DNA of 64,000 bases from Natronorubrum sediminis (lineage in GTDB: Archaea > Halobacteriota > Halobacteria > Halobacteriales > Natrialbaceae), in the NCBI RefSeq assembly GCF_900108095.1, contig NZ_FNWL01000001.1, positions 620,001-684,000 of the forward strand. The letters are read 5' to 3'. This document shows positions 24,603 to 29,760 of the stretch, piece by piece. Each line of letters begins with the position of its first letter. The stretch's first letter is position 1. The notes under the pieces were generated by a model, which saw only the letters and a list, made by a program, of their open reading frames with translations, was not told the origin of the DNA and did no database searches. Both the position numbers and the translations under genes were made by a program.

Positions 24603-25739
24603 TCACTCGACCGGCTGGGCTTCGGGGAACTGATAGCTCCCGTCGAGAATCTCCTCGCGGGGCTCGTAGAGCCGGACCGTGTAGTTCCACCCCTCCGGCG
24701 TGTAGATGAAGTTCGGCTGGTCGGGGTCACCACCGAAATGGATCGTGACGCTACCGTCGTCCGCGCGCTCTGCAGTCGCGTTGCTGACTGTGTAGGCGTC
24801 GAACTCGTTCTCCTCTAAATAAAAGTCGCTGTTGTAGACGGTGACCGACCAGAACCCGTCGACGGGGACGTCCTCGACGGTGAGTGTATGCGGCGTCGTG
24901 CCATCGTTCTGGGCAGGAATCCGTTGGAGGATGAACGCTGCTTCTGGCTCCGGAACGCCGGTCCACCCCGCCGTACTGGCGATGAAGAACTTCACGGGGT
25001 CGACCTCGTCGACGTCGCCAAACGCGCCCGAGTAATCGTCCAGTGTGAATCCGACTGGTATGAGCGCGGCTGTGAGTCGTTGGTACGATTGCTGATCCCA
25101 GTTAGGGATCTCGAACGAGCCAGCCGACGATTGGTTCACCTCGATCTCGTCCTGGAGTTGCCGGGCCTGTTCCAGATCGGCCGGGTCAGTCGGGTCGACG
25201 AACGTCCGGACCAGGACGCCAGCATACTGAGTGTCTACGAGCTCTCGTGTTATCGTGTACCCGCCGGGGTCAGTGGCGAAGTTCTTCACGTACTGGTCCT
25301 CGTCTTGAACGTTCATCGACATGTATCGGTCACCGCTGTCCGGCAGCGTGATGGTGACCGGCTCGGTCAGATCGAACACCCCGAGTGAGGCGATCACGTC
25401 ACGGTTCTCCCCGACGACCAACTGATCTTCGATGGGGGTGACATTTCTGCGATGGTAGAACTGCCCGAACCCGCCCAAGTCGACGGTTGACTGGAACGCA
25501 ACGTGACAGTTGGCACGAGGGTAGTTCTCCCACGTTACCGGGATCGATTCGTCAGCTGCTGACGACTGCTGGTCCGTCTGCTGGGTGTTCGCCTCCGAGG
25601 ACTGTTGGCTGGCAGTGGCACTGCCACTGGCTAGCGCGAGTATTCCGGCGAGACCTGCCCCGCGAAGCGCGGTGCGGCGCGTCGCCCGCAGCGGTTCGAA
25701 GTCCGATTCTGCCGTCGTGTCTGGTGGTTCGTCGCTCAT
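24603..25739 (-). CDS. Secreted DUF1254-type protein with Tat leader (leader copy A)
   Basis: A 378-residue exported protein. The leader reads LRATRRTALRGAGLAGILAL, with twin Arg and a hydrophobic core, then a Gln/Ser-rich linker. The mature part has DUF1254-like VFDLTEPVTITLPDSGDRY and a DUF1214-like C-terminus, GFWSVTVYNSDFYLEENEFD then FIYTPEGWNYTVRLYEP. Family function is not established. Leader and promoter are near-copies of those before the photolyase and the larger DUF1254 gene. It converges with the DUF4397 gene. Confidence 0.8.
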   Translation of the reverse strand: MSDEPPDTTAESDFEPLRATRRTALRGAGLAGILALASGSATASQQSSEANTQQTDQQSSAADESIPVTWENYPRANCHVAFQSTVDLGGFGQFYHRRNVTPIEDQLVVGENRDVIASLGVFDLTEPVTITLPDSGDRYMSMNVQDEDQYVKNFATDPGGYTITRELVDTQYAGVLVRTFVDPTDPADLEQARQLQDEIEVNQSSAGSFEIPNWDQQSYQRLTAALIPVGFTLDDYSGAFGDVDEVDPVKFFIASTAGWTGVPEPEAAFILQRIPAQNDGTTPHTLTVEDVPVDGFWSVTVYNSDFYLEENEFDAYTVSNATAERADDGSVTIHFGGDPDQPNFIYTPEGWNYTVRLYEPREEILDGSYQFPEAQPVE

Positions 25740-26052: not shown

Positions 26053-27738
26053 CTACCACTCCTCCGCAGGGACGACCTCGGGCATGTCGTAGGACCCGTC
26101 AACCACCGACCAACGGGGGCCGTAGAACCGCGCCGCGAAGCGCATGCCCCCTTCGGGGGCTGGCAGCCAGTTCGTCGCCTGCTCGGGATCGGCCGGTTCC
26201 TCCTGCTGTACGTAGATAACGAGTTCGTCACCGTCGGTGTCCAACAGCCCTTCTTCGAGCATGTAGCTATTGATACTGTACCGATCGAGTTCGTTCTCGA
26301 CGAAGTAGCCCTGCGCGTCGTAGATCGGAATCTCCCAGAACTCGGTGACTGGCGGCATGTCCTCGAGGTCGAACGTGATGGTGTACTGGTTCGATCCGTC
26401 CAGTGGTTCGCCGTTCGCGTCGGTGAATTTGAACCCAGCGGCGTGAGACGCGGGCGAGTCGGGGCCTGCGAAACCAAAGTCGGCCATGGCGGCCCGGGTC
26501 AACCAGTCGGTTCTGAAGTCCCCCGTGTTCTGAAGAACGTTCCAGCCGTTCATATCGACCATGACGTCGCCGTTGGCCTCCACCGCGGCGGCTCTGACGC
26601 GCTCGAACCCGCTCTCGAACCCACTGGTCAGCGCCTCCTGGACGTCGGTTTCGAGACTGGACCAGTCGAACGCCAGTCCCGGGCCGATTCCGACCTGCTC
26701 CAGTCGCTCGAGCATCGCAGCCTCCTTGCGGGAGTCGTCGATGAGCGGCATGCTCGGGTCGTTCAGGACGAGATTGAGGAGGGTGAAGAAGTCCGCTGCG
26801 GTCTGATTTTCGACTTGCTGCTCTGTCAGCTCTGCCATTCGCGGGATCGTCTCGTAGTCACCGGGGATGACTGACTGGTCCGCCCACGGCACGCCCGAGC
26901 AGTCGTTTTCGAGCCACTCGCTGAGCGGGGTGATGGTCGTTTGCTCCTGCAGGTCGTTGATGTACGCGATTTCGGATTCATCCGTGGGATCGCGCAGCGC
27001 GTACCGGAGTTCGGTTAACAGAGTCTTCGTCCCTGTTTGGACGACGTCTGTTGCGGCGAAGTCGCCTGGAATCTCGCCCTCGTAGTCGTCCGGCAAGATA
27101 AGGTACGACCGCGCGTCAGTGCCGGTGAACTGATTTCCGGCGTAGAGGGGGTAGATCCCGTACTGGTTCATCAACTCCAGCGAGAAGTAGCGGTCGGTGA
27201 CTTCGGGCATCTCGATGACGACGGGGTCGTCCTGTAGGTCGAGGACGCCCTGCCCGTACAGGGTGGTGGCGTTCGGACTGACCACAGCCGTGAAGTCGGC
27301 CGTTATCGGTCGGCCCTCGTTGGGATAGTACAACCGATTGATTCCCACGAAGACGTCGCTGTCCTCGTTCTGCGTGTAGTTGAAGCGCGTCACGTAGAAG
27401 ATGACCTGCTGGAGTCCGTAGAGGTACGCGTCTTCTGCGATCGCTGCGACACTGGCATCCGTGTCGTTGCCATGGCTCGCTTCGGACTCTCGATCGGCAG
27501 CGACTGTCCGCGTCACCGTCGGTCCACCGAGTGTGAGTCCGCCTGCGATGATTCCCCCTCTCTGGAGGGCCTCGCGGCGTGTCAGCGTTCGGGTGCTGAA
27601 CTGGTGCACTCCATCAACTGTCTCGTCTGAATCCGGGATTCCTTGGTGAGTATTCGTCCCGCGAAGCGCGGTTCGACGCGGTGACCGCAGCAGTTTGACG
27701 TCTAATTCTGGCGTCGTGTGATCTGTTTTTTTGCTCAT
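26053..27738 (-). CDS. DUF1254/DUF1214 secreted protein with doubled Tat leader (leader copy B)
   Basis: A 561-residue exported protein. DUF1254 is represented by AEDAYLYGLQQVIFYVTRF and VVSPNATTLYGQGVLDL, and DUF1214 by TEFWEIPIYDAQGYFVENEL and NWLPAPEGGMRFAARFYGP near the C-terminus. The N-terminus holds two twin-arginine motifs: a shortened copy of the shared leader (LLRSPRRTALRG, Arg at 21-22) and, 32 residues on, a complete native-looking Tat signal (TLTRREALQRGGIIAGG, Arg at 54-55). An ATG between the two would restore the native start only if one existed; I see none, so the fusion is presumably translated whole. Confidence 0.82.
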   Translation of the reverse strand: MSKKTDHTTPELDVKLLRSPRRTALRGTNTHQGIPDSDETVDGVHQFSTRTLTRREALQRGGIIAGGLTLGGPTVTRTVAADRESEASHGNDTDASVAAIAEDAYLYGLQQVIFYVTRFNYTQNEDSDVFVGINRLYYPNEGRPITADFTAVVSPNATTLYGQGVLDLQDDPVVIEMPEVTDRYFSLELMNQYGIYPLYAGNQFTGTDARSYLILPDDYEGEIPGDFAATDVVQTGTKTLLTELRYALRDPTDESEIAYINDLQEQTTITPLSEWLENDCSGVPWADQSVIPGDYETIPRMAELTEQQVENQTAADFFTLLNLVLNDPSMPLIDDSRKEAAMLERLEQVGIGPGLAFDWSSLETDVQEALTSGFESGFERVRAAAVEANGDVMVDMNGWNVLQNTGDFRTDWLTRAAMADFGFAGPDSPASHAAGFKFTDANGEPLDGSNQYTITFDLEDMPPVTEFWEIPIYDAQGYFVENELDRYSINSYMLEEGLLDTDGDELVIYVQQEEPADPEQATNWLPAPEGGMRFAARFYGPRWSVVDGSYDMPEVVPAEEW

Positions 27739-27905
27739 GACTCGTGCCTCTCCGAGTGGCCTATAGTGGTTGGGACCGGCTCACATATTCGCACTCCAGT
27801 ATCCCATATAATACAGCGGCGATACTCGAGAAGAAATTCATGATGTGGTGAAAGTGTTAGATTAATCATATATCTACATCCTCGATCGACTATCTGTACC
27901 TGTTC
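27657..27905 (-). repeat. Leader module copy B
   Basis: Homologous to copies A and C over about 170 bp upstream and about 27 codons. Protein homology ends right after RRTALRG, where the gene's own signal region begins, which marks the module boundary. It shares the GGTTGGGACCGGCTCA block, CATATAATAC and CTATCTGTACCTG. Confidence 0.72.
27804..27813 (-). promoter_or_regulatory. TATA box of leader module B
   Basis: TATTATATGG on the coding strand, about 66 bp before the start codon and identical in position and sequence to that of module C. Confidence 0.5.
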
Positions 27906-28011
27906 TGTTCGGCCTGACGTTGGAGTTTCGTCGGTTCGGTATCTCTGCCCCATGAAAACCAGCCACACCGTGTCCTCGTACTCTTGACGGGGCACGCGAG
28001 AAGCGGCGCCG

Positions 28012-29589
28012 TCAGCCGTCGCCGCGCGCGGCCTCGAACGCCTCGACTGCGCGGTCGTGATGCTCGCCGTACTCGACAATGGGGGCGGGATAGTCGGGCG
28101 CAACGACGGCGCGTTTCTCGTCATCTAGCATAGGCCACTCGTGGATGGCGTCGGTCGGCGCGTCCCGGAGTTCGGGGACGTGTTCCCTGACGTACTCGCC
28201 GTCCGGGTCGTACTTCTCCGACTGGGTCACGGGGTCGAAGAAGTGGAAGTACGGCTGGGCGTGTATTCCCGTCGAGGCAGCCCACTGCCAGCCGCCAGCG
28301 GCGTGAGCGGTGTCGTGGTCCACAAGCTTTCGACGGTACCAGTCGTACCCCTTGCGCCAGTCTATCAGCAGGTCCTTCGTGAGGAACGAGCCGGCCACCA
28401 TCCGGACGCGATTGTGAACCCACGCCTCGTCGCGCAACTGTCGCATCCCGGCGTCGACGAACGGATATCCCGTCTCGCCGTCCTTCCACGCCTGAAGCCC
28501 CTCCGGATCGTCACGCCACTGGATTTCGTTCGGGTACTCGCGGTAGTTCTCGGTAACGACGTCGGGACGCGCGTCGAGGATGTGCGCGTGGAACTCCCGC
28601 CAGGCAAGCCGTCGCCGGAACGTCTCGACCGACTCCCGGGCGTCTCCGTCGCTGGCAGTGGCCGCCGCGTCCTCAGTGGCTTTCCAAACCGTCCGGACGC
28701 CGACTGTCCCGAACTTCAGGTGCGGCGAGAGGCGCGAGGTCGACTCCCGGGCGGGGAACTCGCGGTCGTCCCCGTAGCGGTAGATAGTGTCCTCGCGGAA
28801 GTCGGCGAGGAGGTCGTGGGCGATGTCGGTGCCCGCAGGCTGCACGTCGGCTTCAGGTTCGTTGAAACCCAGGTCGGCGAGTGACGGTAGCGGGCCGGCG
28901 GCACCGGAGGCCTCGTCGAGCCACTCCTCGCCGAGGCGATCGCGGGGGTCGACGACGGCACCGCGAACCGGCGCGGCGACGGGGGCGGCCTTCTCCTGGT
29001 TGCGCCACTCTCGCCAGAAGTCTGAAAAGACGGAGTAGTGGCTCCCGTCATTCGTCGTGATGTGCTCTGGTTCGTGGAGGAGAGTGCCGCCGAACCGCTC
29101 AACGCCGACGCTGACGCCAGTGTCAGCGAGTGCCGCCGCGACCGCACGGTCGCGTTCGCTCGCCAGTCCGGAGTAGTCTCGGTTCCAAGTGACGGCATCG
29201 GCGTCGCAAGCCGCGGCGAGGGCGGGAAGCGCCGCCCTTGGATTGCCGCGGGCGAGGAGCAGTTCGCCGCCCTGATCGCGGTACTGCTCGCGCAATGAGT
29301 CGAGCGCATCGAGCAGGAACGACACCACGGGCGGCGCGCCGTGGGTGAGTATCGCGGGATCGTGAACGAACACCGGGAGTAGGCGGTCGTCACCCGCCAG
29401 TCCCGGGTTGTCGGTCACACGAAGGTCGCGGCGGTGCCAGTGGAGTCGCATACCGACGTCTTGGCGGGCGCTGGCGCGGCCCATCGCGAGCAATCCGGCG
29501 AGGCCCGCCCCGCGAAGTGCGGCGCGGCGGGTTGCTCGTAGCGGTTCGAAGTCCGATCCTCCCGGTGTGTCTGGTGGTTCGTTGCTCAT
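28012..29589 (-). CDS. phr: DNA photolyase with in-frame Tat-like leader (leader copy C)
   Basis: Light-driven repair of cyclobutane pyrimidine dimers using FADH-. From residue 47 the sequence is a complete class I photolyase of 479 residues: MRLHWHRRDLRVTDN at its natural start, the antenna-binding N-domain, and the FAD domain with WREFHAHILDARPDV, VDAGMRQLRDEAWVHNR and GWQWAASTGIHAQPY. The 46 residues before it (LRATRRAALRGAGLAGLLAM) are a copy of the secreted DUF1254 protein's Tat leader. A cytosolic enzyme needs no such signal, so translation may really begin at the internal ATG (29449-29451). Confidence 0.88.
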   Translation of the reverse strand: MSNEPPDTPGGSDFEPLRATRRAALRGAGLAGLLAMGRASARQDVGMRLHWHRRDLRVTDNPGLAGDDRLLPVFVHDPAILTHGAPPVVSFLLDALDSLREQYRDQGGELLLARGNPRAALPALAAACDADAVTWNRDYSGLASERDRAVAAALADTGVSVGVERFGGTLLHEPEHITTNDGSHYSVFSDFWREWRNQEKAAPVAAPVRGAVVDPRDRLGEEWLDEASGAAGPLPSLADLGFNEPEADVQPAGTDIAHDLLADFREDTIYRYGDDREFPARESTSRLSPHLKFGTVGVRTVWKATEDAAATASDGDARESVETFRRRLAWREFHAHILDARPDVVTENYREYPNEIQWRDDPEGLQAWKDGETGYPFVDAGMRQLRDEAWVHNRVRMVAGSFLTKDLLIDWRKGYDWYRRKLVDHDTAHAAGGWQWAASTGIHAQPYFHFFDPVTQSEKYDPDGEYVREHVPELRDAPTDAIHEWPMLDDEKRAVVAPDYPAPIVEYGEHHDRAVEAFEAARGDG

Positions 29590-29760
29590 AGCTCATACCT
29601 CTCTGAGTGGCTCACAGCAGTGATTAGGACCGACTCACACGTTCGTACTCCAGCGTTCCATATAATACAGTGATAAGATTCGAGAATAGTTTCACGACAC
29701 GATGATAGTGGTAGATGGGTGACCATCTCTGAGTTCTCGATTGTCTATCTGTACTTGTAG
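29458..29760 (-). repeat. Leader module copy C
   Basis: Covers about 170 bp upstream of the photolyase frame and its first 44 codons. At protein level EPPDT and SDFEPLRATRR and ALRGAGLAG are shared with copy A. Upstream, CATATAATACAG and the terminal CTATCTGTACTTGTAG are shared with B and A. Homology stops just before the photolyase's own ATG. Confidence 0.75.

Follow-up and report, generated by a model that had tools for sequence, protein, structure and literature searches.

The question raised by this locus is whether a DNA-repair-type enzyme of a haloarchaeon is sent out of the cell. The stretch studied, here called the window, comprises 64,000 nucleotides of Natronorubrum sediminis (contig NZ_FNWL01000001.1, positions 620,001 to 684,000 of the forward strand), and its minus-strand open reading frame (ORF) 28012–29589 is open for 525 codons from the ATG at 29589. 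The product matches DNA_photolyase at residues 49–205 (PF00875, E 3.9e-38) and FAD_binding_7 at residues 324–519 (PF03441, E 9.4e-74), the domains of class I cyclobutane pyrimidine dimer (CPD) photolyases. As the initial annotation described, these domains, from codon 47 on, stand in one frame behind a leader of the twin-arginine translocation (Tat) type. Our analysis suggests that the gene probably encodes a translated derivative of class I photolyase that is Tat-exported, horizontally spread and altered in its photochemistry. The parts of the gene are as follows.

28012–29451, minus strand: photolyase module (DNA_photolyase and FAD_binding_7), from Pfam and residue alignment
29452–29589, minus strand: 46-codon Tat-type leader, with the twin arginines at codons 21–22 (29524–29529), A-S-A at codons 39–41 (29467–29475) and a short Gly/Ala/Leu core
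29482–29484, minus strand: in-frame ATG at codon 36, invariant in 14 aligned relatives and the sole alternative start common to them
29449–29451, minus strand: ATG at codon 47, called the natural Met in the initial annotation, though no more than 2 of the 15 species have ATG there

A search of 125 Natrialbaceae genomes with the first 120 residues of a consensus recovered the complete fusion of leader and photolyase from 14 genomes, at 86–93% identity. Below these matches came a sharp drop in score, and the next sequences were photolyases without the leader, none above 62% identity and most aligning only from about residue 40–47. A plasmid of Natribaculum longum was a fifteenth carrier beyond the 14 genomes, and in a 392-genome sample of the order the fusion was confined to Natrialbaceae. 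The named carriers include Natronococcus jeotgali, Natrinema ejinorense, N. hispanicum and Natronorubrum thiooxidans. Some copies reside on large plasmids, those of Natrinema gelatinilyticum, Natribaculum luteum and Natribaculum longum being plasmid-borne. The leader was always exactly 46 codons long with invariant twin arginines in the 15 species, and their identical fusion rules out a sequencing artefact or a chance in-frame ORF.

The initial annotation had left two alternatives for the leader, an untranslated 5' relic or an N-terminal targeting tag, and proposed a comparison of the phr starts in relatives. The comparison showed that ATG at codon 47 is not general: it was limited to the window and one relative (G103), so the natural Met holds for these two and not for the other species. 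Among the 14 genomes codon 47 was ATG in 2, GTG in 6, CTG in 2, ATA in 2, GTA in 1 and GCG in 1, and in N. longum it was ATA; altogether, 7 of the 15 species have no usual start (ATG, GTG or TTG) there. Codons 1 and 36, on the other hand, were ATG in all 14 genomes. The annotated record of Natribaculum luteum (WP_246976662.1; L157:6139-7578, NZ_CP095398.1) omits the leader, which was missed because the NCBI Prokaryotic Genome Annotation Pipeline (PGAP) placed the start at codon 47, a CTG.

The leaders of the 15 species contained no indels, stops or frameshifts. R21, R22, A24-L-R-G-A-G29, S40-A41 and Q43 were invariant in the 14 aligned leaders, while the n-region (residues 2–16) drifts. When the leader substitutions were mapped onto the gene tree and compared with the neutral expectation in all frames, codons 17–35 showed 16 amino-acid-changing and 27 silent substitutions, against 29.1 changing of 43 expected neutrally (P 3.9e-5), and purifying selection was also evident over codons 2–35 (P 3e-4). 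Codons 37–46 alone were indistinguishable from neutral (P 0.54). In the same mapping the two other reading frames of the leader gave no selection signal, and since codons 17–35 are selected in frame, the leader core is read as protein. The in-frame selection on these codons also disfavours ATG 36 as the sole start. For the window species by itself, translation may in part begin at ATG 47 or ATG 36. The untranslated relic is rejected for the clade: 7 of the 15 species lack a usual start at codon 47, all 15 keep the frame and the core is selected.

The leader has the parts of a Tat signal peptide. Its motif is T-R21-R22-x-A-L25, of which all but residue 23 were invariant in the 14 proteins, followed by a core rich in Gly, Ala, Leu and Met. 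The sequence A39-S40-A41, present in 13 of 14 proteins with T-S-A in the remaining one, forms the AxA pattern of signal peptidase I and is the predicted cleavage site. The uncharged run after the twin arginines covers 15–17 residues in 12 of 14 proteins, and 11 in the window protein and that of N. jeotgali (G011), where Arg38 ends it. TatC matches were found in the genome of the window species and in three relatives. The targeting-tag alternative is accordingly the one favoured by these data, and its anatomy is that of a full, cleavable Tat signal and not just of a membrane anchor. In one relative (L104, G002) Arg42 is replaced by Cys (GGASAC), which makes the end of the leader weakly lipobox-like.

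Codons 1–46 align with the leader of a DUF1254/DUF1214 gene of the window (74% over 42 amino acids, E 5e-15), and at the DNA level the similarity sets in some 180 bp before the photolyase start (295 bp, 76%, E 3e-57), well outside what chance would give. A third, partial copy of this cassette (70%) forms the 5' end of a long DUF1254/DUF1214 gene, and beyond these three copies no further strong one was found in the same genome. The features concerned are listed here.

29658–29667, minus strand: TATA-like element TATTATATGG, a putative promoter about 69–79 bp upstream of the start, within the shared 5' cassette
29590–29657, minus strand: stretch from the TATA-like box to the start codon, including a presumed 5' untranslated region (5'UTR) of about 50 nt, conserved with DUF1254 genes
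26053–27738, minus strand: long DUF1254/DUF1214 gene, beginning with the partial cassette copy and then a second Tat-type motif (LTRREALQRGGIIAGG)
24603–25739, minus strand: DUF1254/DUF1214 gene, the closest full cassette copy in the same genome

In an alignment of 44 5' regions, belonging to 14 photolyase, 25 DUF1254, 3 long DUF1254 and 2 HAD genes, similarity was 71–86% between roughly -80 and +120 and dropped to 44% over the next 20 bases. The TATA-like element was conserved across these 44 regions. Between the TATA-like box and the start, the photolyase and non-photolyase copies had a mean identity of 76–80%. The likeness stops directly after codon 41, the predicted cleavage site, and the joint therefore lies at the border between signal peptide and mature protein. 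The putative promoter, the 5'UTR and the leader are thus all shared with the DUF1254/DUF1214 genes, which is more than the initial annotation stated. Haloarchaeal DUF1254/DUF1214 Tat-type proteins are homologous to the fusion up to codon 41, whereas their mature domain is unrelated to its photolyase. The leader had been described as a copy of that of the neighbouring secreted protein. The homology stands, but recent local copying does not, as the fusion predates the set of species compared and the photolyase leaders have an ending of their own, MGxxSAxQ, common to all of them.

Besides the photolyase and DUF1254/DUF1214 genes, the cassette stands before a gene for a HAD-type hydrolase in two further genomes of Natrialbaceae (L130:511-1632 and L135:511-1632, both minus strand), so that it has been combined with no fewer than three protein families unrelated to one another. 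The long DUF1254/DUF1214 proteins (26053–27738, minus strand, in the window, and L154) carry two successive Tat-type motifs, that of the cassette leader, truncated in the window, and then LTRREALQRGG, which looks as though the cassette was placed before a gene already provided with a signal. A literature search for DUF1254 together with DUF1214 found no publication.

The 14 fusion proteins formed a single clade with full support (100/100) at the end of a long branch (stem 0.38 changes per site). L110, a duplicate of the G099 member that the tree still labels as ordinary, was removed from the ordinary photolyases of the comparison. Silent divergence between species (pS) was 0.18 for the fusion and 0.49 for the ordinary photolyases of the same genomes, and the relationships within the fusion clade cross genera; the low divergence and the genus-crossing pattern together indicate horizontal transfer of the fusion among Natrialbaceae. 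The ratio of nonsynonymous to synonymous substitution (dN/dS) in the body of the protein was 0.23, near the 0.21 of the ordinary photolyases, which rules out a decaying pseudogene.

The residues of the 14 fusion proteins were compared with those of 40 ordinary haloarchaeal photolyases. At the position of Escherichia coli N378, which faces the flavin N5, all 14 fusion proteins have Ala and all 40 ordinary ones Asp. This flavin-adjacent residue varies between photolyases and plant cryptochromes (PMC7782693, PMC10940379) and corresponds to D396 of plant CRY1 (PMC7782693). At the position of Arg49 (Arg51 of Synechococcus elongatus SePhrA), Val in 14 of 14 contrasts with Arg in 40 of 40; in SePhrA this Arg is reportedly crucial for binding 8-hydroxy-5-deazaflavin (8-HDF), through a salt bridge (PMC9178010). 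The E274 position is Arg in 13 of 14 fusion proteins and Gln in 39 of 40 ordinary ones, the D391 position is Asn or His in all 14, a change present in none of the 40, and the N400 position is Asp in 12 of 14. The altered residues of the window protein are V88, R327, A430, H443 and D452, and the retained ones W330, W358, N393, R394, M397, W411, W434 and W436. The Trp triad (W306, W359 and W382 of E. coli) and the lesion-pocket residues W277, W384, N341 and R342 are kept in all 14 fusion proteins, M345 in 13, and the residues of the flavin adenine dinucleotide (FAD) site that were checked are kept in the clade.

Of known systems, the class I 8-HDF-type CPD photolyases (Synechococcus elongatus/Anacystis nidulans PhrA, PDB 1owl/1tez, and the ordinary haloarchaeal enzymes) share with the fusion the fold, both domains, the Trp triad, W277, W384, N341, R342 and the Asp residues of the FAD site. 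Unlike them, the fusion has the 46-residue Tat leader, present only in some Natrialbaceae, and Ala at N378/N386, Arg at E274, Val at Arg51 and Asn or His at D391. Plant cryptochromes (CRY) belong to the same superfamily, and their residue facing the flavin N5 likewise departs from the photolyase Asn; it is, however, Asp, as in the ordinary haloarchaeal photolyases compared, and Ala in the fusion. The fusion also lacks the cryptochrome C-terminal extension and is nearer in sequence to class I photolyases than to plant CRY. Against NCBIfam TIGR03556, used here as the model of 8-HDF-type photolyases, the window protein, the one scored, reached 415.3 bits, below the cut-off of 884.6. The S. elongatus photolyases are the nearest solved structures both by sequence and by fold (1owm/1owl, template modelling scores 0.78/0.85). 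The AlphaFold2 model of the window protein has a mean predicted local distance difference test (pLDDT) score of 73, with the leader mostly below 50, and no fine structural claim rests on it.

Ordinary chromosomal repair is unlikely as the main job of the fusion, because the flavin-N5 residue, a lesion-contact position and the Arg of the 8-HDF antenna are changed; the electron-transfer Trp residues and the lesion-pocket core are retained. In 12 of the 14 fusion genomes an ordinary photolyase is also present. Taken with the conserved leader and the altered active site, this suggests that the protein is exported and has changed in function. The active-site divergence had gone unseen in the initial annotation, and it moves the question from a mis-targeted repair enzyme to a probable new function. 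In the course of events that we favour, the Tat signal and the promoter would have been acquired together, in one origin, from the DUF1254/DUF1214 Tat-type family, and the fusion would then have moved between Natrialbaceae by horizontal transfer. The protein would fold and bind FAD in the cytosol, cross the membrane through the Tat translocase and lose its signal by cleavage after Ala41, so that five additional residues would precede the photolyase fold; outside the cell it may act as a light-driven flavin protein. Its two likeliest uses would be action on extracellular DNA or a light or redox role at the cell surface.

Three other explanations were weighed against export. That the leader is an untranslated or neutral relic before an ordinary cytosolic photolyase starting at Met 47 is very improbable: ATG 47 of the window and G103, the PGAP start of the Natribaculum luteum protein and the sole photolyase found in the genome of the window agree with it, but the ATA, GTA, CTG or GCG that 7 of the 15 species have at codon 47, the purifying selection acting on the core of the leader, 15 leaders free of indels and stops and the diverged active site do not. 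Somewhat less improbable, yet still unlikely, are two products, an exported full-length form and a shorter cytosolic one from ATG 36 or, in the window species, ATG 47. This reading is in keeping with the ATG present at codon 36 in all 14 genomes and would suit the window species with its ATG 47, its Arg38 and its lack of another photolyase. The invariance is weak evidence, however, because the residues around ATG 36 are about equally conserved and Met occurs there in some DUF1254 leaders too, and the ordinary photolyases of 12 genomes make a cytosolic form unnecessary. A similarly low probability is given to capture of the cassette for its promoter, the leader being a translated, tolerated extension of a cytosolic or membrane-tethered protein that continues light repair. 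The cassettes before HAD genes and before long DUF1254 genes with their own Tat motif fit such capture, as do the weak hydrophobic core and the shortened uncharged run of the window species; conservation of the twin arginines, the core and S-A41 while the n-region drifts is instead the pattern of a working signal, and the flavin-pocket and antenna-site changes speak against plain repair.

Several observations weigh against Tat export of an altered photolyase. The hydrophobic core of the leader is weak and Gly/Ala-rich, and Arg38, by limiting the uncharged run to 11 residues, weakens the case for the window species; the TatFind rule asks for about 13 or more uncharged residues after the twin arginines. 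Arg38 need not abolish export, since many Tat signals have a basic residue close to their cleavage site. Exchange with DUF1254 leaders by gene conversion could produce a signal similar to selection on the leader, whose synonymous divergence (0.24–0.26) lies above the 0.18 of the body. The presence of the cassette before genes with their own Tat signal may reflect capture for the promoter. The residue changes are not all fixed, as the G099 member has Gln at 274 and Asn at 400. Searches with PF03441 and PF04244 found no second photolyase in the genome of the window, where a cytosolic role stays possible. The lineage of the window, with its shortened uncharged stretch, its ATG 47 and its apparent lack of a second photolyase, is perhaps special, and a dual or cytosolic role is possible there.

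The fullest form of the export reading, that one event made a photolyase into a light-driven flavoprotein exported to the surface or the surroundings of the cell, with no 8-HDF antenna and a re-tuned flavin site, passed among haloarchaea as a fusion with a promoter-plus-signal cassette and constituting an extracytoplasmic member of the photolyase/cryptochrome superfamily, is put forward more tentatively, at slightly under an even chance. To our knowledge, photolyases and cryptochromes are known from the cytosol, nucleus or organelles. A literature search combining photolyase with Tat or secretion terms revealed no title or abstract on an exported photolyase, within incomplete literature coverage. 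The data suggest that a DNA-repair-type enzyme has apparently been turned into a protein working outside the cell membrane in the salt-loving archaeon of the window and at least 14 relatives. If this is true, a conserved exported member raises questions about extracellular DNA repair or light-driven chemistry in sunlit brines. The fusion clade also supplies a naturally occurring series of flavin-pocket changes at the active site, and illustrates how a promoter-plus-signal-peptide cassette can join a new gene and change the site where its product works.

Some minor observations concern the carriers and their surroundings. In the gene tree the window species (genome G000) and N. jeotgali, which share the Arg38 leader, are sisters, and neither genome contained another FAD_binding_7 protein. 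The small ORF 27735–28124 of the window, overlapping the 3' end of the photolyase gene and the next promoter, was judged spurious. In L104, formylglycine-generating-enzyme-like and arylsulfatase-like genes, recognized from N-terminal sequence only, adjoin 1.9–5.3 kb downstream of the photolyase start, and SulP-like transporter genes (cluster c3) lie near the photolyase in several relatives.
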